A stretch of DNA of 20,418 nucleotides, taken from a virus. Shown here piece after piece: positions 3,620 through 20,164 of this stretch. The stretch covers positions 1 through 20,418 of IMG/VR virus record IMGVR_UViG_3300044634_003118. One strand, given 5' to 3'. The position numbers and the translations under genes are program-made. The notes under the pieces are model-generated. The model worked only from the letters and a program-made list of their open reading frames with translations, did not search any database and had not been told where the DNA came from. Every line of letters begins with the position of its first letter. Position 1 is the stretch's first letter.

Positions 3620-3658
3620 GTTATGGTATTTGGGTTATGGGTTGTGGTTGGGGGAGAG
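3620..3658 (-). promoter_or_regulatory. G-free C/A-rich translation leader of the SSB-like gene
   Basis: The 39 bases between the exonuclease stop (3659) and the SSB start contain no C on the plus strand, hence no G in the mRNA. The leader is built from repeats like AACCCATAACCC and has no Shine-Dalgarno sequence. An unstructured pyrimidine/A leader of this kind could be bound by ribosomal protein S1. The composition is seen directly; the role is inferred. Confidence 0.5.
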
Positions 3659-7341: not shown

Positions 7342-7512
7342 AAAAATGCGTAGGAAAATCCGAAAAAATCCGAGTTCACGCCCCTAAAAATGAATTTTTT
7401 ATGGGGAAAATGAAAATTTTTCGGTTTTCGGGGGGGGGTCAGTATGAGTCCGACCCCGCCACCCCCTGGATTTTTCAATTTTTGTGGGCGGGGTCTAATC
7501 CTGATAACATGA

Positions 7513-7531
7513 CTAATGATTAAATCATTAG
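7513..7531. repeat. 19-bp AT-rich palindrome at the left edge of the GC-rich block
   Basis: CTAATGATT and AATCATTAG flank a single central A, giving a perfect 9-bp-arm palindrome. It lies seven bases before one copy of the 11-bp inverted repeat that also occurs near the right edge of the block. Confidence 0.7.
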
Positions 7532-7537
7532 CAGGTT

Positions 7538-7548
7538 ACCCCGGATTC
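7538..7548. repeat. Left copy of 11-bp inverted repeat bracketing the GC-rich block
   Basis: ACCCCGGATTC here is matched by its exact reverse complement GAATCCGGGGT at 11572-11582. The pair encloses the whole compositionally distinct region. It could be a terminal inverted repeat of an inserted element or chance; 11 bp is short. Confidence 0.5.
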
Positions 7549-7589
7549 GGATCAATGGTAAGTTACTTACCTTTGATTTGTAAACCCCA

Positions 7590-8034
7590 CTTTCAACCGC
7601 CGGCGGACGGCGGGGCGGCCGCACGGGATCGGCAGCGGCAACGGTTGCCGCCCTTCCGGGGCGGCACGGGGCCGGCGGCAGGCCGGCGGCAAGGGTTTGA
7701 CCGTGCCGGCGGCAGGCCAGCGGACGGGGCAAGGGAAGGGGAAGCCCCGCACGGGGCGGCAAAGGGCGGCACGGGGCAAGGGAAGCCGGCGGACGGCAGC
7801 GGCAAACGGCAGCGGGGCGGCGGACGGACGGCAAGGGCGGCAAGGGCGGCAAGCTGCCCCGGCTTTGCCTAGGCGGGGCGGCACGGGGCGGAAAGGGGAA
7901 AGGGGAAGGGCGGACGGGGTTTGCCGCACATGAATCACAAGCGGCGGCAAATATGGGGCAAATAGGGGGCCAGGCACCCCCCTACGGGGGTTTAACGGGG
8001 CTTGTGCGGCACGGTTGCACGGTTGCGAACTAGG
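7590..8034. other. GC-rich low-complexity non-coding stretch (left flank of accessory block)
   Basis: Built from a few recurrent words (GGCGGC, CGGACGG, GGCACGG, GCAAGGG) with G strongly favoured on the plus strand. Open frames here are a by-product of the composition: their products are runs of Pro/Arg/Ala or Gly/Arg with no domain-like pattern. It lies downstream of the terminator that ends the accessory operon. Near 7965-7992 it includes a short hairpin (ACCCCC/GGGGGT) and one copy of a 16-bp repeat shared with the right flank. Confidence 0.6.
7968..7983 (+). repeat. 16-bp direct repeat GGCCAGGCACCCCCCT, left copy
   Basis: An identical copy is at 11243-11258 in the opposite GC-rich flank, and a 13-base partial copy (GGCCAGGCACCCC) lies near 9259 inside the 315-residue gene. 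The repetition in both non-coding flanks suggests a shared origin of the flanks. Confidence 0.65.
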
Positions 8035-8065
8035 GAAAAGAAAAGCCCCGGACGTGCCGGGGCTT
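8035..8065 (-). terminator. Rho-independent terminator of the accessory operon
   Basis: On the minus strand a perfect 9-bp stem (AAGCCCCGG/CCGGGGCTT) with a 5-base loop is followed by TTTTCTTTTC. It lies about 25 bases beyond the stop of the last accessory gene (8091) and confirms that the block is transcribed leftward. Confidence 0.85.
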
Positions 8066-8090
8066 GTAAGGGTTGCGGGGCGGCGGGGCT

Positions 8091-8657
8091 TCATTCCAGC
8101 GGCGGCGGATTAAAGGCCGGCCAGCGGCGGGATTGAATCACCCCATCAATTGGATCATGCAAACGGTAAAGGCCGGCCAACTTATTAAAGTAAACGGCAA
8201 GCCGGGGCAGCAGCTCCGGCGGCAACCGTTTAAGCACGGCACGGGCCGCGCAACCCCCTTCCGGCCATTGCCCGGTGCCGTAATAATGGCGGCAACCGCC
8301 GGCAAGGGCGGAGGCATGATCCGCTGCCCAATCCCATATGTAACCGGGGGCACCGTGGCCATATGCCGTTGCCTTTATCAATCGAAGGGCGGCAGCGGCA
8401 AGCCGGGGCTTGTGAGCTGTCCAGCCAATCAAATCCGAATTCCGCCCGGTTGCGTAAAACGAAAGCAGCGGGGAAAACGGCAAGGGGTAAACCGTGCCGG
8501 AAACCGTCCGCCGCTTGCCGCCGGAGGTGACTTGCACGGCAGCCGGCAAACCGTGGCCGGCGTACCCCGTTGCAACCGCCGTCCGGGTGATCCCGTCCCG
8601 GCAAACAACCGGCAACCGTTTGCCGGGGTAATAGCGGAAACCTTGGGAGTTAAACAT
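8091..8657 (-). CDS. Accessory-block hypothetical protein, 188 aa
   Basis: The ATG at 8657 overlaps the end of the 315-residue gene by 8 bases, and a terminator follows the stop. The sequence begins MFNSQGFRYYPGKRLPVVCRDG and has a plausible mix of hydrophobic and charged residues, including YFNKLAGLYRLHDPIDGVIQ near the C-terminus. No family recognised. Codon use (CTT/TTG Leu, ATT Ile, CCG Pro) matches the other accessory genes, not the phage core. A plus-strand frame over the same bases is judged a shadow. Confidence 0.6.
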   Translation of the reverse strand: MFNSQGFRYYPGKRLPVVCRDGITRTAVATGYAGHGLPAAVQVTSGGKRRTVSGTVYPLPFSPLLSFYATGRNSDLIGWTAHKPRLAAAALRLIKATAYGHGAPGYIWDWAADHASALAGGCRHYYGTGQWPEGGCAARAVLKRLPPELLPRLAVYFNKLAGLYRLHDPIDGVIQSRRWPAFNPPPLE

Positions 8658-9597
8658 GAGCGGCGGCAACGGTTGCGCGGATGACAAAGCCGGATTGATC
8701 GGCCCGGGCCTTGCCTTTTGCTTTCAATATGCCGATGCGGCCCCGTCCGTCCGCCGCTTTCCTATCTAGAAAACGCAAGTCATGCCGATCAGCGGAAAAG
8801 GTGGGGCGGGCTTCCGGCAGGCCGGGAAGGGCGAACCGCTGCCCCGGCCTTACCCCGTCCGCCACGGCGGCAACGTTCACGCCGGCGGCAAGGGCCAAGC
8901 CGGCGGCGGCGGCGTTTGTTTCAGAATAAGAAAAGGTCAGGTGATAATTCCGGGGAAGCTCACCTTTAGCAAAGGCAACGGCACGGCGGAGGGATTTACT
9001 ATAATCATAAAAACGCAACCGGGGGAATTCCGTAAACAACTCCGGGGCCAGCTTTTCCCACGGGAGATCGCTTGTGCCGTTCAACCGTACAACCGGTTTT
9101 AAGCCCCGCCGATTTGCTTTCCTGATCAATGCGGCAATTTCTCCTTTAAGGGCGGCAATAAAGCCGGCCCGGTTTTCATGTAGAAAACGGGTTCGCATGA
9201 CCCGGGCTTTATTGACCGCTTCAAATATGCCGGCACGGCCTGCCGTAAAGAGACAAGCGGCCAGGCACCCCGCGGACGCATGGGGGCAAAGGTTACCGAC
9301 CCCGGCAAGCTGCCCCGGGGCAAGGTATAAAATCCCGGTCAGGTAACCGCTTGCCGTCCCCTTATCCGTCTTTGCGTCCGCTTCTACTGACAGCAAATAT
9401 GACGGCATATAGAAGGGAAGCAAAGCGGCGGGGTGGATCACCGGGGCGGCGGGGCGGGGCAAGCCGGCGGAATAATGGCCACCGTCCGGGCCGGACGTGC
9501 CGGCGGACTTCGGGGGGCATAGGTTTGCCGGCTTCATGCCGGCGGTGATCAGGAAAGCCGGTTTAACCGCCGGCACGGGATTGTTTATGGGTTTCAT
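8650..9597 (-). CDS. Conserved phage/plasmid-type protein with CPHASAGCLAAC cysteine motif
   Basis: 315 residues. Residues 1-60 are Pro/Ala-rich and probably disordered. From about 88 the sequence follows a pattern I recall from uncharacterised phage and plasmid proteins: YLAPGQLAGVGNLCPHASAG followed by CLAACLFTAGRAG (Cys104, Cys111, Cys115), RLNGTSDLPWE (about 161-171), FYDYSKS (196-202), NYHLTFSYSE, DLRFLD and GILKAKGKA near the end. Three cysteines close together suggest a metal or cluster site, and the Gp88-type phage proteins share a similar CPxxxxC flavour, but no reaction is known to me. It is the longest and best-supported gene of the block. The ATG at 9597 is preceded by an 18-base leader without G. 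Confidence 0.78.
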   Translation of the reverse strand: MKPINNPVPAVKPAFLITAGMKPANLCPPKSAGTSGPDGGHYSAGLPRPAAPVIHPAALLPFYMPSYLLSVEADAKTDKGTASGYLTGILYLAPGQLAGVGNLCPHASAGCLAACLFTAGRAGIFEAVNKARVMRTRFLHENRAGFIAALKGEIAALIRKANRRGLKPVVRLNGTSDLPWEKLAPELFTEFPRLRFYDYSKSLRRAVAFAKGELPRNYHLTFSYSETNAAAAGLALAAGVNVAAVADGVRPGQRFALPGLPEARPTFSADRHDLRFLDRKAADGRGRIGILKAKGKARADQSGFVIRATVAAAHV

Positions 9598-9615
9598 GGG
9601 TTTTAGGGGAAAGGG

Positions 9616-9981
9616 TTAAGCGGCGGACTTTGCGGGGATTCCGGTCGGAAAGTGAACATCCGCTTTCCATGCGGCGGCAAAGGCAATTGCCTTTAAATAA
9701 TCCCCTAAAACCTGCGGCATGGGCCGGCCAAGCGGCGACATAAAAACACCGTCACCGCGCTCCCATATGCCGGTCGGCATCCCTTCGGGGATGAGCTGCA
9801 TAGGGAGCCGGGTGAATTCAAGTTTAAGCTCACCGTGGCAAGCCCCGGCTTCCCATGCGATCAGCACGGCAGCGGGGCGGCGGCGGAGGTTAACGGATTG
9901 GATGGTAACGGGCGAACCGTCCGCCGCTTTACGGGCGGCGGTCAGGATTGCACGGGCGGCGGTTGTTTGATCGGTTTTCAT
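9616..9981 (-). CDS. Accessory-block hypothetical protein, 121 aa
   Basis: The start is the ATG at 9981, ten bases after the upstream stop; a longer frame extends into Pro-rich translation of the neighbouring gene and is rejected. N-terminal helix MKTDQTTAARAILTAARKA, then beta-like VTIQSVNLRRRPAAVLIAWEAG and a helical C-terminus YLKAIAFAAAWKADVHF. Function unknown. The leader is C/T-rich without G. Confidence 0.62.
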   Translation of the reverse strand: MKTDQTTAARAILTAARKAADGSPVTIQSVNLRRRPAAVLIAWEAGACHGELKLEFTRLPMQLIPEGMPTGIWERGDGVFMSPLGRPMPQVLGDYLKAIAFAAAWKADVHFPTGIPAKSAA

Positions 9982-9991
9982 GTGGGGGAAA

Positions 9992-10231
9992 TTAAGCGGA
10001 AGGGGTTTGATCGGCGGCAAAAGCGGCAACCCGGTTTGCTTCCCAGTTGGAATAGTGGGCAAGGGCGGCGGCAAGCTGCTGGAATTGTTCAAACCGGGCG
10101 GCGTAAAGGTCGCCGGCGGTTCCGGAATCAAACCGATTTTCGGCGTCATGCGCGGACTGGATGACGGAAAAGGCGGCATCAATTGCCTCCCTGATAACGG
10201 GATCGGCGGCGGGGTCGGATTGTTTGCTCAT
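9992..10231 (-). CDS. Accessory-block hypothetical protein, 79 aa
   Basis: Helical, Ala-rich acidic protein (REAIDAAFSVIQSAHDAENRFD; AARFEQFQQLAAALAHYSNW). ATG at 10231 follows a 14-base leader made only of C, T and A. No motif recognised. Consistent spacing, direction and leader type with its neighbours support it as a real gene. Confidence 0.6.
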   Translation of the reverse strand: MSKQSDPAADPVIREAIDAAFSVIQSAHDAENRFDSGTAGDLYAARFEQFQQLAAALAHYSNWEANRVAAFAADQTPSA

Positions 10232-10245
10232 GTTAGGGGAAAGGG

Positions 10246-10557
10246 TTAAAGGGAAGCACCGGCGGCACGGGCCGCAAGGGAAGCGGCGGCTTGTTCCAAG
10301 TTGCCGGCGGATTCATGCCCAAGGGAAAACCGGGGGAACGTTTGCCGGAGGTAACGGGCCGCACCGGTCAACTTTGCCCCGGCATCAATTGAAAGGAGAT
10401 CGGCAAGGGAGATGCAACCGGCCACTTCGTCTAGCTCATTCAAAACATAAACGGCGGTTTCAGGTGCGTCCGCTTGCAATGTGTTTGCCAAGTTGTCCGC
10501 TTCCATGGCGGCAATTTGGATGATATGGGAAACCGGCATGAGGTTAACGGAATGCAT
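10246..10557 (-). CDS. Accessory-block hypothetical protein, 103 aa
   Basis: Starts MHSVNLMPVSHIIQIAAMEAD; internal ATG codons at residues 7 and 18 are alternative starts. It has an N-terminal helix, a short strand AVYVLNELDEVAG and a helical, Ala-rich C-terminal half with a Tyr/Arg segment (AARYLRQTFPRF). No family recognised. The 12-base leader lacks G. Confidence 0.58.
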   Translation of the reverse strand: MHSVNLMPVSHIIQIAAMEADNLANTLQADAPETAVYVLNELDEVAGCISLADLLSIDAGAKLTGAARYLRQTFPRFSLGHESAGNLEQAAASLAARAAGASL

Positions 10558-10569
10558 AGGGGGAAGGGA

Positions 10570-10653
10570 TTAAAGAGAGAGAAAGGCAACGGCGGTAATC
10601 CACATGAGGAAAACGATAGCGGCGGCGGTCAGGGCGTCTTTTAGGTGTTGCAT
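10570..10653 (-). CDS. 27-residue membrane peptide
   Basis: A tiny frame fits between two accessory genes. Its ATG (10653) is 19 bases after the upstream stop, and the leader is made only of C and T. Its stop is 12 bases before the next start. The product is MQHLKDALTAAA followed by a hydrophobic stretch IVFLMWITAVAFLSL, a probable single membrane helix. Position, spacing and leader match the neighbours, which is the evidence for it. Function unknown. Confidence 0.5.
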   Translation of the reverse strand: MQHLKDALTAAAIVFLMWITAVAFLSL

Positions 10654-10672
10654 AGGAGGGAAGGGGAAGGGG

Positions 10673-10870
10673 TTAAGCGGTTGCACGGTTCAATTCAGAT
10701 TCAACTAAATCAGGGCAGCCGGCGAAAAAGTAAAACCCCACCGTGGCAAGCTGGCCGTAGCAAACCGCACGGGCGGCGGTTTCCCCGTGCCGTGCGGCGT
10801 AAAGGGAAAACCCTTTTGCGGCGGCATGAGACGTTTTGATATGAGCGGGAACGTTATCGGAGTTATACAT
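10673..10870 (-). CDS. Accessory-block hypothetical protein, 65 aa
   Basis: The ATG at 10870 (MYNSDNVPAHIKTSHAAAKG) is preferred; the longer frame to 11029 would overlap the gene upstream. Contains AARHGETAARAVCYGQLATVGFYFFAGCPDLVESEL, with a hydrophobic/aromatic patch and two Cys. No family recognised. Confidence 0.55.
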   Translation of the reverse strand: MYNSDNVPAHIKTSHAAAKGFSLYAARHGETAARAVCYGQLATVGFYFFAGCPDLVESELNRATA

Positions 10871-10938
10871 GGGAGTATTGAGTACGGGATTGAGAAAGAG
10901 GGAAGCGGCGGGGCTTGTCAAACGGTTTGATTGAGTGA

Positions 10939-11106
10939 TCAGGAAATGATATAGGTATAATTTCCAAGGGCGTTTAGTTCGCGCACCGTATTGTCCAGCT
11001 GATCCAGCTTGCGTTTGAATGCCATCCAATCGCCGTTAGGGTTAAGGAGCTTTAGCTCCGCCTGCAGGGATTTAATTTCACTAATAATTTGGGATTCGGT
11101 TTTCAT
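10939..11106 (-). CDS. Small coiled-coil-like protein, 55 aa, first gene of the accessory operon
   Basis: A frame from the ATG at 11106 to a TGA at 10939-10941 encodes MKTESQIISEIKSLQAELKL, an Asn-Pro-Asn-Gly turn, then a second helix with RKLDQLDNTVRELNALG. Two amphipathic helices joined by a Gly turn suggest an oligomerising helical hairpin. Its composition is less GC-rich than its neighbours. A 68-base gap separates it from the next gene. Promoter not identified; CATAAT at about 11165-11170 (minus strand) is a weak -10 candidate. Confidence 0.6.
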   Translation of the reverse strand: MKTESQIISEIKSLQAELKLLNPNGDWMAFKRKLDQLDNTVRELNALGNYTYIIS

Positions 11107-11242
11107 GTGTCAGGGGATCGGGTACGGGATGAGACAAAGGCCCGGGCGGCGGCCGGTCAACGTCATTATGTCATAAAGTTTGCCCCCTATTTTTGGACAT
11201 GGGAAGCCCCGCCGGCGGACGGTTAAACGGCACGGCAACGGC

Positions 11243-11258
11243 GGCCAGGCACCCCCCT
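11243..11258 (+). repeat. 16-bp direct repeat GGCCAGGCACCCCCCT, right copy
   Basis: Exact match to 7968-7983 in the left flank, in the same orientation, about 3.3 kb apart. Confidence 0.65.
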
Positions 11259-11369
11259 CTTTCGGCACGGCAGCGGGGCAGGCGGACGGCAATCCCTACC
11301 CCTTGCCGCCGGCAGGCGGACGGGGTGCGGGGCGGGGCGGCGGCGGACGTGCCGCCGTTCCCTATAGGC

Positions 11370-11405
11370 GGACGGACGGACGGACGGACGGACGGACGGA
11401 CGGAC
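11370..11405. repeat. GGAC tetranucleotide tandem repeat, nine units
   Basis: Nine uninterrupted GGAC units followed by GG. The three-unit repeat would encode Pro-Ser-Val-Arg on the minus strand, but no supported gene covers it. Short CGGACGG fragments are scattered through both GC-rich flanks, so it looks like local slippage expansion of the prevailing word. Confidence 0.9.
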
Positions 11406-11550
11406 GGCAGCTGATCAGGCGGACGGCAACGGCACGGCACGGCAATCGGTTGCACGGACGGCAAAGCGGCAAGGGAAGCACGTCAACGGCAGGCCGGCAG
11501 GCCGGCACGGCCGGCCAATCGGCCACGGTTGCGGGGCGGCGGCAGGGTTT

Positions 11551-11568
11551 GTTCAATAATTATTGAAC
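11551..11568. repeat. 18-bp perfect palindrome at the right edge of the GC-rich block
   Basis: GTTCAATAATTATTGAAC reads the same on both strands and marks the abrupt change from GC-rich to mixed composition. It is three bases before the right copy of the 11-bp inverted repeat. It mirrors the AT-rich palindrome at 7513-7531, though the sequences differ. Confidence 0.75.
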
Positions 11569-11571
11569 CCT

Positions 11572-11582
11572 GAATCCGGGGT
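11572..11582. repeat. Right copy of 11-bp inverted repeat bracketing the GC-rich block
   Basis: GAATCCGGGGT is the reverse complement of 7538-7548. A further 12-bp palindrome, GATTCGCGAATC, lies at 11594-11605. Confidence 0.5.
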
Positions 11583-11745
11583 GAGGAACCCAGGATTCGC
11601 GAATCATGACCTTTTTAATCATGTATTGCCGACTCATGTATAGACTCCCCACTAAGGAATCTATTCCCCCATCCGCCAGCGGGGGGGGCGAAGCCCCACC
11701 GACCCCGTTAAAAACATGGGGGTAAACCAACGAAAACCATATGTT

Positions 11746-17564: not shown

Positions 17565-18635
17565 ATGTACTCCCTTTCCAACGCATTCAAGACCTTCGCC
17601 CCGATTCTCATCGAGCCGGCGAAGGCCAAGGCTTACCTCGACAAGGTGGCCGAAATCTCTCCCGCCGACCTGAAGGGCAACGGCGACATCGAAGACATGA
17701 TGGAGATGCTCTTCGGTCCCCGTCCGACGATGGTCAAGACCGGCAAGGTCGCTTATATCCCCGTGCGCGGCGTGATCGGCTCTGGCCTCACCGAGCTGGA
17801 AAAGATGATGGGTGCCTGCGACGTCGAAGAGGTCGAGGAGATGCTGGAGGACGCCGAGCGTGACCCCGGCGTCGAGCATATCATCATGGACTTCGACTCG
17901 CCTGGCGGCACCGTCACCGGCGTTCCCGAACTCGCCGCCCGTATCCGCAAGTGCGTCAAGCACACCATCGGTTACACGTCCAAGCAGTCCTGCTCCGCAG
18001 CCATGTGGATTATGAGCCAATGCGACGAAGTCTACGCCAGCCGTTCGGCCACCGTGGGCAGCATCGGCGTCTACATCCCGTTCTACGACATGAAGGCGGC
18101 TTACGCGCAGGACGGCGTCAGCGTCGATCTCATCAAGGCTGGCTGGGCCAAGGGGGCTGGTTTCGCCGGCACCTCCCTCACCCCCGAGCAGCGTAAACTA
18201 TTCCAAGACGACGTCGACGAGTCCCACGCCTGGTTCATTTCCGACGTCCTCAAGGTTCGCACCTACGCCGACCCCGCCGATATGCAGGGTCAATGCTGGA
18301 CGGGCAAGAAGGCCGCCGAGAAGAACCTCATCAACGGCATCGTCGACAGCATCGACGCCTTGTACATGGCCATTGACCCCACGGAGTACGCCGCGCACGA
18401 AAAAACCGAGCCGCACAAGTTTCCCATGATCGCCATGAACATGGTAGAAGCCGCCGACGTTTCGCCCGAGCAAGGCGAGAAAGACGACGGCGTCGCCCCG
18501 ATTTCCGACGACAAAAAGAAGAAGAAAAAGAAGAAGAAGCCGGACGGCACGGATTCGGACGAAGACGAGGATGAGGCGGAAATCCCCGACGACGGATGCC
18601 CCCCCATCGACACCGACTGCAAGCCCAAGGCTTGA
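17565..18635 (+). CDS. S49-family prohead protease (lambda gpC / SppA-like)
   Basis: 356 residues. The ClpP/SppA-type core shows IPVRGVIGSG (65-74), IIMDFDSPGGTVTGV (106-120), the nucleophile Ser144 in QSCSAAMW, ATVGSIGVY (162-170) and a candidate catalytic Lys196 in KAGWAKGAG, 52 residues after the serine as in SppA enzymes. It would cleave scaffold and possibly portal during prohead maturation. The C-terminus is odd: nine consecutive lysines (about 317-325) followed by an acidic stretch. A cluster of Met codons (MIAMNMVEA) about 70 residues from the end could start a nested scaffold, as Nu3 is nested in lambda C. The start is ATG, 3 bases after the portal stop. Confidence 0.9.
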   Translation: MYSLSNAFKTFAPILIEPAKAKAYLDKVAEISPADLKGNGDIEDMMEMLFGPRPTMVKTGKVAYIPVRGVIGSGLTELEKMMGACDVEEVEEMLEDAERDPGVEHIIMDFDSPGGTVTGVPELAARIRKCVKHTIGYTSKQSCSAAMWIMSQCDEVYASRSATVGSIGVYIPFYDMKAAYAQDGVSVDLIKAGWAKGAGFAGTSLTPEQRKLFQDDVDESHAWFISDVLKVRTYADPADMQGQCWTGKKAAEKNLINGIVDSIDALYMAIDPTEYAAHEKTEPHKFPMIAMNMVEAADVSPEQGEKDDGVAPISDDKKKKKKKKKPDGTDSDEDEDEAEIPDDGCPPIDTDCKPKA

Positions 18636-18651
18636 CACTTGGCTAAACCCA
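18632..18651 (+). promoter_or_regulatory. Late leader element, copy 2
   Basis: TTGACACTTGGCTAAACCCA, overlapping the protease stop codon and ending two bases before the ATG of the coiled-coil gene. Closest to copy 3. Confidence 0.6.
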
Positions 18652-18653
18652 AG

Positions 18654-19115
18654 ATGACGCTCGAAGAACGCCTTAACTCGCTGAAGGAAGCCTTCACCGG
18701 CAAGACCGCTGAGGTCGAAGCCAAGGCCAGCGAAGTTGCCTCCCTGTCCGCCAAGGTCGATGAACTGACCGCTGCGATGTCCGCCAAGGACGCTTCGCTC
18801 GCCGAGTTCACCGCCAAGGTCGCTGACCTTTCCTCCAAGCTCGCCGCCGCCGATGAACTTCGTGCCAAGGCCGAAGCCCAGGCGAAGGAAATTCACGCCT
18901 CGCAGGAAACCGCCGGCAAGAAGGCCGCTGCCATCGCCGCCTCCGTCGGCGTCACTCCCCTTGAAGTCACCCCCGCCGAAGTCGCCGCTACCTCCAAGAG
19001 CGACGAGGATATCTCCGCCGAGTGGGTGGCCCTCAAGCAGACCGACCCCAAGGCTGCTTCCGATTTCTACAGCAAGAACCGTCCGGCCATCCTCCGCGCC
19101 GCCGGCCTTCGCTGA
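18654..19115 (+). CDS. Coiled-coil scaffold or capsid-assembly protein candidate, 153 aa
   Basis: I choose the ATG at 18654, placed right after the leader element as in its two sister copies; a TTG at 18639 would lie inside that element. Residues 1-95 form a long Ala/Lys/Glu-rich coiled coil (KTAEVEAKASEVASLSAKVDEL and similar). The C-terminus (ISAEWVALKQTDPKAASDFYSKNR) is a compact helical module common in phage proteins upstream of capsid genes. Position between protease and major capsid protein suggests an internal scaffold digested during maturation; a lambda D-like decoration role is less likely because it is not beta-rich. Confidence 0.65.
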   Translation: MTLEERLNSLKEAFTGKTAEVEAKASEVASLSAKVDELTAAMSAKDASLAEFTAKVADLSSKLAAADELRAKAEAQAKEIHASQETAGKKAAAIAASVGVTPLEVTPAEVAATSKSDEDISAEWVALKQTDPKAASDFYSKNRPAILRAAGLR

Positions 19116-19151
19116 TTCTTTCCCCTCTCCAACCCAACCTAACTCCCTACT
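19116..19151 (+). promoter_or_regulatory. G-free pyrimidine-rich leader of the capsid gene
   Basis: All 36 bases between the scaffold stop and the capsid ATG are C, T or A; there is no G and no Shine-Dalgarno motif. It shares TTTCCCCT with the accessory-operon leaders. The major capsid protein is the most abundant late product, so this leader must be efficient. Confidence 0.55.
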
Positions 19152-20066
19152 ATGTCTAACAGCATTGGTGGCTTGACCCTCCAGCTCGTCGCTGAAGAGT
19201 CCCTCCGCACCCTCGTCCCCGAACTCGTTCCCCTGACCGAGATCGCCGTCACCGACTTCGGCAACTACGTCGCCGAGCGCGGCACCACGGTTCACACCCG
19301 TTACGCCGGCTCCTTCACGGCCACCACCTTCAACGCCGCCAACGGCTTCGTCCCCTCGGACGCTGTCTCCACGGACGTCCCGGTGACCATCGCCGACCTG
19401 AAGTATGTCGACGTCGCCTTCACCGACTACGAAGCCTCCACCCTCAGCCTGGAACGCCTCCGTCGCCTCTTCTTCGCCCCGATTGCCAACGCCGTCCAGA
19501 AGTCCCTGTTCGACGAAGTCCTCTCCAAGGTGACGGCCGCCAACTTCGCCACCGAAGCCTACTCCGGCGCGACCAGCGGCTTCAACCGCATCGCCGTGGC
19601 CAATGCTGCGAAGAACCTCACCAAGGCTAACCTGCCCCACATCGGTCGCAAGTTGCTCATCAGCCCCGACGCCATGGGCCAGCTCGTTCAGGACCCGTCC
19701 GTCGCCCAGACCTTCTCCTACGGCAACAGCGATGTGATCCAGAAGAACTCCATCAGCAAGGAACTCCACGGCTTCAGCGTCTCCGAGTACAACGGTTTCC
19801 CCGTCTCTGGTACGCCCTTCACCGAAGGTCTCAACGGTGTGGCCTCCTGCAAGGAAGGTCTCGTCATCGTGACCCGTGTTCCTGCTACCCCGACCACCGG
19901 CGGTGGCGAACAGATGGTCGTTCAGGACCCGGACAGCAAGTTCTCCTTCGCTCTCCGCTACTGGTACAACTGGCAGGCCGGTAAGCACAATATGTCTGCC
20001 CTCTGGCTCGTTGGTTCTGCGGTCGGTAACCCGAACGCCCTCCAGCGCATCGCCTTCACCTCGTAA
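19152..20066 (+). CDS. Major capsid protein (HK97-fold type)
   Basis: 304 residues. N-terminal helix LQLVAEESLRTLVPELVPL, then a beta-rich region (GTTVHTRYAGSFTATTF), VPVTIADLKYVDVAFTDYEAS and LERLRRLFFAPIANAVQKSLFDEVLSKV forming the spine-helix region. Then a P-domain, LLISPDAMGQLVQDPSV, ending in a beta-rich segment KFSFALRYWYNWQAGKHNMSALWLVGSAV. This order is that of P22-coat/HK97-like shell proteins found in many siphophages. Position after protease and scaffold and before a strong terminator agrees. Codons are very strongly biased to C-ending forms, as expected for a highly expressed gene. Confidence 0.9.
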   Translation: MSNSIGGLTLQLVAEESLRTLVPELVPLTEIAVTDFGNYVAERGTTVHTRYAGSFTATTFNAANGFVPSDAVSTDVPVTIADLKYVDVAFTDYEASTLSLERLRRLFFAPIANAVQKSLFDEVLSKVTAANFATEAYSGATSGFNRIAVANAAKNLTKANLPHIGRKLLISPDAMGQLVQDPSVAQTFSYGNSDVIQKNSISKELHGFSVSEYNGFPVSGTPFTEGLNGVASCKEGLVIVTRVPATPTTGGGEQMVVQDPDSKFSFALRYWYNWQAGKHNMSALWLVGSAVGNPNALQRIAFTS

Positions 20067-20108: not shown

Positions 20109-20147
20109 CCCTCTCCCCGCGCCACGGGGGGAGGGTTTCTTATTTTG
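20109..20147 (+). terminator. Strong rho-independent terminator after the capsid gene
   Basis: A 10-bp stem (20109-20118 with 20126-20135, one G-T wobble) and 7-base loop is followed by TTTCTTATTTT. A second near-palindrome (GGGGGA 20072-20077 / TCCCCC 20086-20091) precedes it, directly after the stop codon. Downstream genes need read-through or their own start signal; a leader element begins within the T-run. Confidence 0.88.
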
Positions 20148-20164
20148 ACAATGGGCTAAACCCA
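20145..20164 (+). promoter_or_regulatory. Late leader element, copy 3
   Basis: TTGACAATGGGCTAAACCCA; its last A is the first base of the next gene's ATG. It lies directly after the capsid terminator, so it is well placed to restart expression. Confidence 0.6.

Follow-up and report, generated by a model that had tools for sequence, protein, structure and literature searches.

G-free leaders as candidate start regions for Shine-Dalgarno-independent translation in a group of related phages

How could a ribosome find the starts of genes that are preceded by no Shine-Dalgarno (SD) site? The question is raised by an array of small accessory genes in an IMG/VR virus record (IMGVR_UViG_3300044634_003118, positions 1 to 20,418; this whole stretch of 20,418 nt, or 20.4 kb, is further referred to as the window). 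For five consecutive genes of the array, the initial annotation described G-free, pyrimidine-rich leaders and tentatively proposed a repeated initiation design, read through ribosomal protein S1 or by absence of structure. We considered the following alternatives: the leaders could be unstructured start regions; the string repeated in them could be a joint for gene exchange; a pyrimidine tract in them could be recognized by S1 or another factor; they could act at the level of transcription; they could pair with 16S rRNA as a displaced substitute of the SD site; or they could merely reflect the local base composition.

The window encodes a GpA-type terminase, a portal protein, an S49-type protease, the major capsid protein and an exonuclease VIII-like protein, while the small unknown genes form a minus-strand array with a GP88-family gene (PF17338) as its last member. 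The phage genome has about 60% G+C. Related phages were retrieved via GP88; 13 of them span the same region and were compared wholly or partly, yielding, together with the window, 14 genomes, whose accessory regions amount to 22.4 kb in all. The matching segments of the relatives are mostly 80-95% alike, the variable part being that from GP88 to approximately 11.6 kb. The composition of the accessory stretch (approximately 7500-11600 of the window) is unlike that of the rest of the phage: its sense strand is rich in GCCGCC/GCCGTGCC, and it contains a CGGA tandem repeat (11369-11407). Because of this odd composition, a coding model trained on the phage overlooks most genes in the stretch. As our home-made gene caller hence misses genes there, the accessory genes were tiled by maximal coverage, blind to the preceding sequence.

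The array opens with a 55-aa gene (MKTESQIISEIKSLQ...; 10939-11106, minus strand, as all features of the array), which follows a promoter-like element TTGAC-N17-TTTGTCTCAT at 11129-11160. Most of the 14 genomes have a similar, slightly varied arrangement at this place, and the element probably serves as the array promoter. The form TTTGTTTATGTGTCCTATG or similar, found in some relatives (G001, G006, G009, G012), would leave the first gene almost without a leader. The predicted transcript would start at or beside the first ATG in some relatives (e.g. G006 and G009), and the first gene may be leaderless there.

The five leaders were found exactly as initially described, comprising 73 nt in total with not a single G and with no SD match, each leader being situated between a TAA stop codon and an ATG. 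The first one, CCCCTTCCCCTTCCCTCCT (19 nt, 10672-10654, read directly), precedes the gene of a 27-aa hydrophobic peptide (MQHLKDALTAAAIVFLMWITAVAFLSL; 10570-10653), present in most related phages and one of the most stable genes in an array that otherwise varies; the leaders of its orthologues differ in sequence in nine genomes, nearly all of them being G-free beside the ATG. The second, TCCCTTCCCCCT (12 nt, 10569-10558), belongs to a 103-aa gene (10246-10557) with relatives in 11 other genomes compared, and its G-free run also covers the 3'-terminal part of the gene upstream, making up 29 nt in total. The leaders CCCTTTCCCCTAAC (14 nt, 10245-10232), whose type also precedes unrelated gene families, and TTTCCCCCAC (10 nt, 9991-9982) precede genes of 79 aa (9992-10231) and 121 aa (9616-9981), respectively; as in the case of the 103-aa gene, no known family was assigned to these two. 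The last leader, CCCTTTCCCCTAAAACCC (18 nt, 9615-9598), precedes the GP88 gene (315 aa, 8650-9597; Pfam PF17338, E = 1.1e-42; PHROG 1617, E = 9.3e-59). The GP88 gene of related contigs has the same leader, and in some relatives a different G-free leader occurs at this place. In two relatives (G002, accessory region positions 1863-2198; G004, 1288-1572) there are extra genes directly ahead of GP88 with GP88-like N-termini (MKPKNNPVPAAT... and MKPIKQTAPQVK...), which suggests that other genes could have been inserted into the GP88 start.

As to the proposed scheme of TAA, then CCCTTTCCCC or a close variant, then ATG, both TAA and ATG are present in all five cases, the exact CCCTTTCCCC occurs in two leaders, and the other three carry variants. 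Nor is the design special to the five genes, since the 65-aa gene upstream of them in the same array (10673-10870) also has a 14-nt G-free leader (10884-10871). It is not restricted to the array either, as strongly G-free leaders were also found at 19115-19151 (plus strand) and 3620-3658 (minus strand).

The absence of G is a general property of the array. We collected 51 accessory leaders with a gap of 5-40 nt from the upstream stop codon in the 14 accessory regions. They contain 24 G in 895 nt (2.7%), as compared to 25.9% in coding sequences, and 40 of them are entirely G-free; the binomial probability of such a deficit given the coding G frequency is approximately 3e-81, which ignores the relatedness of the genomes and hence should be read as "very strong" and not literally. 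The G content is 0-4% at each position from -1 to -15, and a G-free stretch of 15 nt precedes 90% of the starts with accessory leaders versus 1.9% of internal ATGs. The median length of the G-free runs in the array is 24 nt. Codons 2-7 of the accessory genes are also G-poor (6-11%), and the stop codon preceding the leader is TAA in 47 of 51 cases.

The motifs themselves were compared with dinucleotide-preserving shuffles. On the local strand of the window, [ACT]15-ATG was seen five times, versus a mean of 0.55 and a maximum of 4 in 1,000 shuffles, and CCCTTTCCCC before ATG was seen twice, versus a mean of 0.007 (1,000 shuffles). In the 14 accessory regions, all 11 sense-strand copies of CCCTTTCCCC have an ATG within 14 nt (shuffle mean 0.07, never more than one), and all 22 sense-strand copies of TTTCCC(C)TAA are located just ahead of an ATG (shuffle mean 0.06, never more than one); neither string occurs on the antisense strand.

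Which bases are tolerated can be seen at the major capsid gene (19152-20066). Its 37-nt G-free leader (19115-19151, plus strand) was compared in 80 contigs, where it has 43 distinct versions with a mean pairwise identity of 0.54. G makes up 0.1-1% at positions -1 to -30, the G-free part extends over approximately 36 nt, and beyond -40 the G content is 24-30%. Among the departures from the column majority only 7 of 444 are to G: 1 of 108 from A, 4 of 192 from C and 2 of 144 from T, versus 65%, 36% and 19%, respectively, at the third codon positions of the same gene. Judging by these substitutions, G is selected against in the capsid leader while the other bases drift.

A G dip is also observed at other core genes. 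For the 149-aa gene 3619-3170 on the early/replication side, whose G-free leader is at 3620-3658 (minus strand), 11 orthologues have 2% G at positions -20 to -1 versus 20% at -60 to -31. The same tendency is seen for other core genes with an intergenic leader of their own, e.g. that at 17565 (1% G), while genes starting inside the upstream gene mostly have no dip. On the whole, the core genes are SD-free yet only G-depleted (approximately 14% G; a G-free stretch of 15 nt is seen in about 20%). Thus, strict exclusion of G is not required by every gene, and a part of the gap between the core and accessory genes is due to errors in start calling. We also noted a repeated element TTGACA-N3-GGCTAAACCC, or its near variants, at 18632-18650 and 20145-20163 (both plus strand) and in G002, G005, G007, G009 and G012 (3-5 sites each). 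Some copies end with TC. The element ends 0-14 nt upstream of the ATG of mostly late genes; its TTGACA is too near the start codon for an ordinary -35 box.

The SD sites were defined as AGGA, GGAG or GAGG in the usual window, and one gene caller was used for all phages. No SD site was found in 99 leaders of the phage group, and 224 leaders of a larger contig set had SD sites in 2% of cases. Two phages with G+C content similar to or above that of the phage group, Pseudomonas phage Haddon and Caulobacter phage Sansa, had them in 67% of leaders, the samples being small (6 and 12 leaders). No SD sites were seen in Verrucomicrobia phage P8625, crAss001 and an Akkermansia phage, the control samples comprising 6-12 leaders each. 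Taken together, the lack of SD sites is phage-wide, while strict exclusion of G is seen in the leaders of the accessory array and of some core genes. The initial interpretation is partly supported, its supported part being that of a repeated non-SD initiation design.

The host is probably a member of Verrucomicrobiota. The sole match of the capsid protein among 50,697 phage records was Verrucomicrobia phage P8625 (E = 7e-17, 28% identity), and P8625 also was the best-scoring among the terminase matches listed (E = 6e-32); the identity in these two matches supporting the host is 24-28%. On the other hand, for the portal protein the matches to Wolbachia phages are about as good as those to Akkermansia phages, making the host assignment uncertain. 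P8625, with a Puniceicoccales host, is hence the nearest cultured relative by capsid and terminase. It resembles the phage group in having SD-less leaders (none of 29 leaders with a gap of at least 5 nt has an SD site) and a coat gene whose ATG is preceded by about 29 nt with no G; the difference is that its leaders are A-rich (12% G), with no CCCTTTCCCC-type string among those listed. Some Verrucomicrobiota, namely Akkermansia and Verrucomicrobia bacterium IMCC26134, have been classed as SD-scarce although their anti-SD sequence is intact (PMC10783764). The lack of SD sites in the phage agrees with this feature of its probable host phylum; the passages considered report the scarcity of SD pairing in bacterial genes, and describe no rule of G-free leaders.

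If the leaders serve to keep the start region open, little structure should be predicted around the start codons. Indeed, the mean predicted folding energy of the 45-nt windows at accessory starts is -0.9 kcal/mol, versus -10.3 kcal/mol inside genes; it is approximately -6 kcal/mol at ab initio core starts and from -7 to -10 kcal/mol in SD phages. Thus, the "absence of structure" variant of the initial annotation fits the data. The start windows remain equally open when their letters are shuffled (-1.0 kcal/mol), and hence base composition alone accounts for the openness. A structured RNA element in the leaders was rejected, as the Rfam search yielded no match and almost no leader structure is predicted.

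We consider it probable that the G-free leaders enable translation to start independently of SD sites, and that the phage infects an SD-scarce host, most likely from Verrucomicrobiota. Selection would strip G from approximately 15-36 nt ahead of the start codon and, in accessory genes, also from the first few codons. RNA consisting of A, C and U could form A-U pairs only, leaving the start codon unstructured, so that the 30S subunit could land without the SD contact. As the genome has about 60% G+C, C dominates in what is left, and strings like CCCTTTCCCC are largely what the exclusion of G leaves. In addition, the leader CCCTTTCCCCTAA has repeatedly been employed as a ready-made module for starts of accessory genes that are unrelated to each other and can be exchanged. 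Both the effect of G-free leaders on initiation and the identity of the host are what we infer from sequence comparisons.

Bacteroidota provide a known case of SD-independent initiation. In Flavobacterium johnsoniae, it is associated with Kozak-like A-3 and A-6 and with little structure; in this SD-less bacterium, replacement of A-3 by G cut the output of a reporter by 70%, compared to a cut of 15% when C was introduced and of 30% with U (PMC6847099). The latter data independently support, by experiment, G as the worst leader base. The phage leaders are similar to this system in the absence of SD sites and the weakly structured start region, with G being harmful in the reporters of F. johnsoniae. 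In contrast to the leaders of Bacteroidota, which are A-rich (A at -3, -6, -12 and -13), they are C-rich and have A or C at -3; the phage genome has about 60% G+C, and some genes have leaders from which G is almost completely excluded. The Kozak-like enrichment in A is not observed in the accessory leaders, where the frequencies of A and C are 0.45 and 0.53 at position -3, and 0.35 and 0.59 at position -6.

The lack of G does not by itself explain everything, as it leaves the excess of TTTCCC unaccounted for: this string occurs in 20 of 44 distinct leaders, whereas 1.2 are expected from composition (maximum 6). The longer leader type, CCCTTTCCCCTAA (type I), precedes five unrelated gene families, the shorter type, TAATTTCCCTAA, precedes four, and the GP88 gene carries either of them, depending on the phage. 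One could suggest that the string is a recombination joint, that is, identical short leaders let accessory genes swap as ready-to-translate cassettes. This is possible, although rather doubtful, and would be compatible with SD-independent translation from G-free leaders. The distribution of the two types over gene families favors the suggestion, and so does the location of the array, which lies where phages that are otherwise 80-95% identical differ from each other. At the same time, the strings are merely 13-21 nt long, no recombinase is linked to them, and the capsid leader is equally G-free, yet its gene is not exchangeable. Besides, the exact string is not strongly held: the similarity of orthologous GP88 leaders is 0.53, versus 0.61 at fourfold sites, and strong conservation of the exact string was rejected by this test. 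The simplest reading is that the string is copied or moved along with accessory genes, and is retained because it is G-free.

In this layout the leaders resemble the Start-Associated Sequences (SAS) of cluster K mycobacteriophages (PMC3203893), as in both cases a short asymmetric repeat, common to related phages, is situated several bases before the ATG of many unrelated non-structural genes. The difference is that the SAS (GGGATAGGAGCCC) holds the SD core AGGAG, while the phage element is devoid of G and unable to pair with the anti-SD sequence; no inverted-repeat extension (ESAS) was seen at the phage leader element. Hence, the string is a SAS look-alike in layout and not a member of the SAS. 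A tentative idea, less than likely in our opinion, is that CCCTTTCCCCTAA-N1-6-ATG is both a portable G-free start module, by which any accessory gene could be translated in an SD-less host of high G+C content, and a swap joint, thus forming an SD-free counterpart of the SAS.

An exact scan of 2.9 million viral contigs found TAACCCTTTCCCCTAA in 14 contigs, mostly from the same phage group or from unrelated phages where the site is away from a comparable leader. In one contig, L205 (IMG/VR 3300027797_000133, 24.5 kb, 59% G+C), the same 16-mer is located inside a 35-nt G-free leader, and a second gene has a 40-nt G-free leader. L205 comes from the same metagenome as the relative G012, and the terminase of the window has no match in it. 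The G-free leaders of L205 hint at a host-level habit.

If, instead, a C/U-rich tract were a landing site read by bS1 or another factor, pyrimidines should be more common among the non-G bases of the leaders. They are not: their share is 0.758 in accessory leaders, compared to 0.707 in coding DNA and 0.791 at third codon positions, and 0.70 in the capsid leaders versus 0.755 in the capsid gene. Thus, the constraint is the absence of G, and hence of RNA structure, rather than a pyrimidine signal, and this part of the initial annotation was not supported. Moreover, A-rich leaders occur at the same position (in G012 and P8625), and the capsid leaders exchange A, C and T freely. No S1 or S21 domains are encoded in the phages examined, with the positive controls being detected. 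The excess of TTTCCC over the leader composition and its similar distance from the ATG in the two main leader types speak for such a signal, but on balance it is unlikely, and absence of structure is favored over S1 as the reading of the leaders.

The leaders could also act in transcription, C-rich and G-poor RNA being an intergenic Rho-loading (rut) site. The rut sites are known to consist of C>G bubbles, and the leaders have this make-up. However, the G-free runs are short and lie directly before the ATG, a rut site would not be expected to be placed so exactly before starts (22 of 22 copies), and the depletion of G runs on into codons 2-7, which is a footprint of translation initiation; we regard this role as very unlikely. 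Alternatively, UUCCCCUA could pair with UAGGGGAA, a conserved sequence in helix 45 of 16S rRNA, as a displaced SD substitute, given a presumed complementarity over 8 nt. This extremely improbable variant was rejected, since the common three-C variants (TTTCCCTAA) and most capsid leaders break the complementarity, and helix 45 is itself paired within the ribosome. Finally, chance, that is, pyrimidine-rich DNA that merely happens to precede starts, could draw on the excess of C over G on the sense strand of the array region, but the motif is commoner than local composition predicts, and the shuffles that never match the observed counts, the antisense strand with no copies, the internal ATGs lacking G-free leaders and the capsid-leader substitutions refute this explanation, leaving it next to no probability.

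Most studies of how starts are chosen in the absence of SD sites concern AT-rich Bacteroidota, in which it is difficult to separate the abundance of A from low structure. In the phages considered here, the genome of about 60% G+C, the C-rich leaders and the 43 versions of the capsid leader point to the loss of G as the selected property. These leaders make it possible to tell "no G / no structure" apart from "A-rich" or "pyrimidine-rich", and supply sequences for testing. A G-free rule would also aid gene callers, which are poor at placing starts in SD-less phages.
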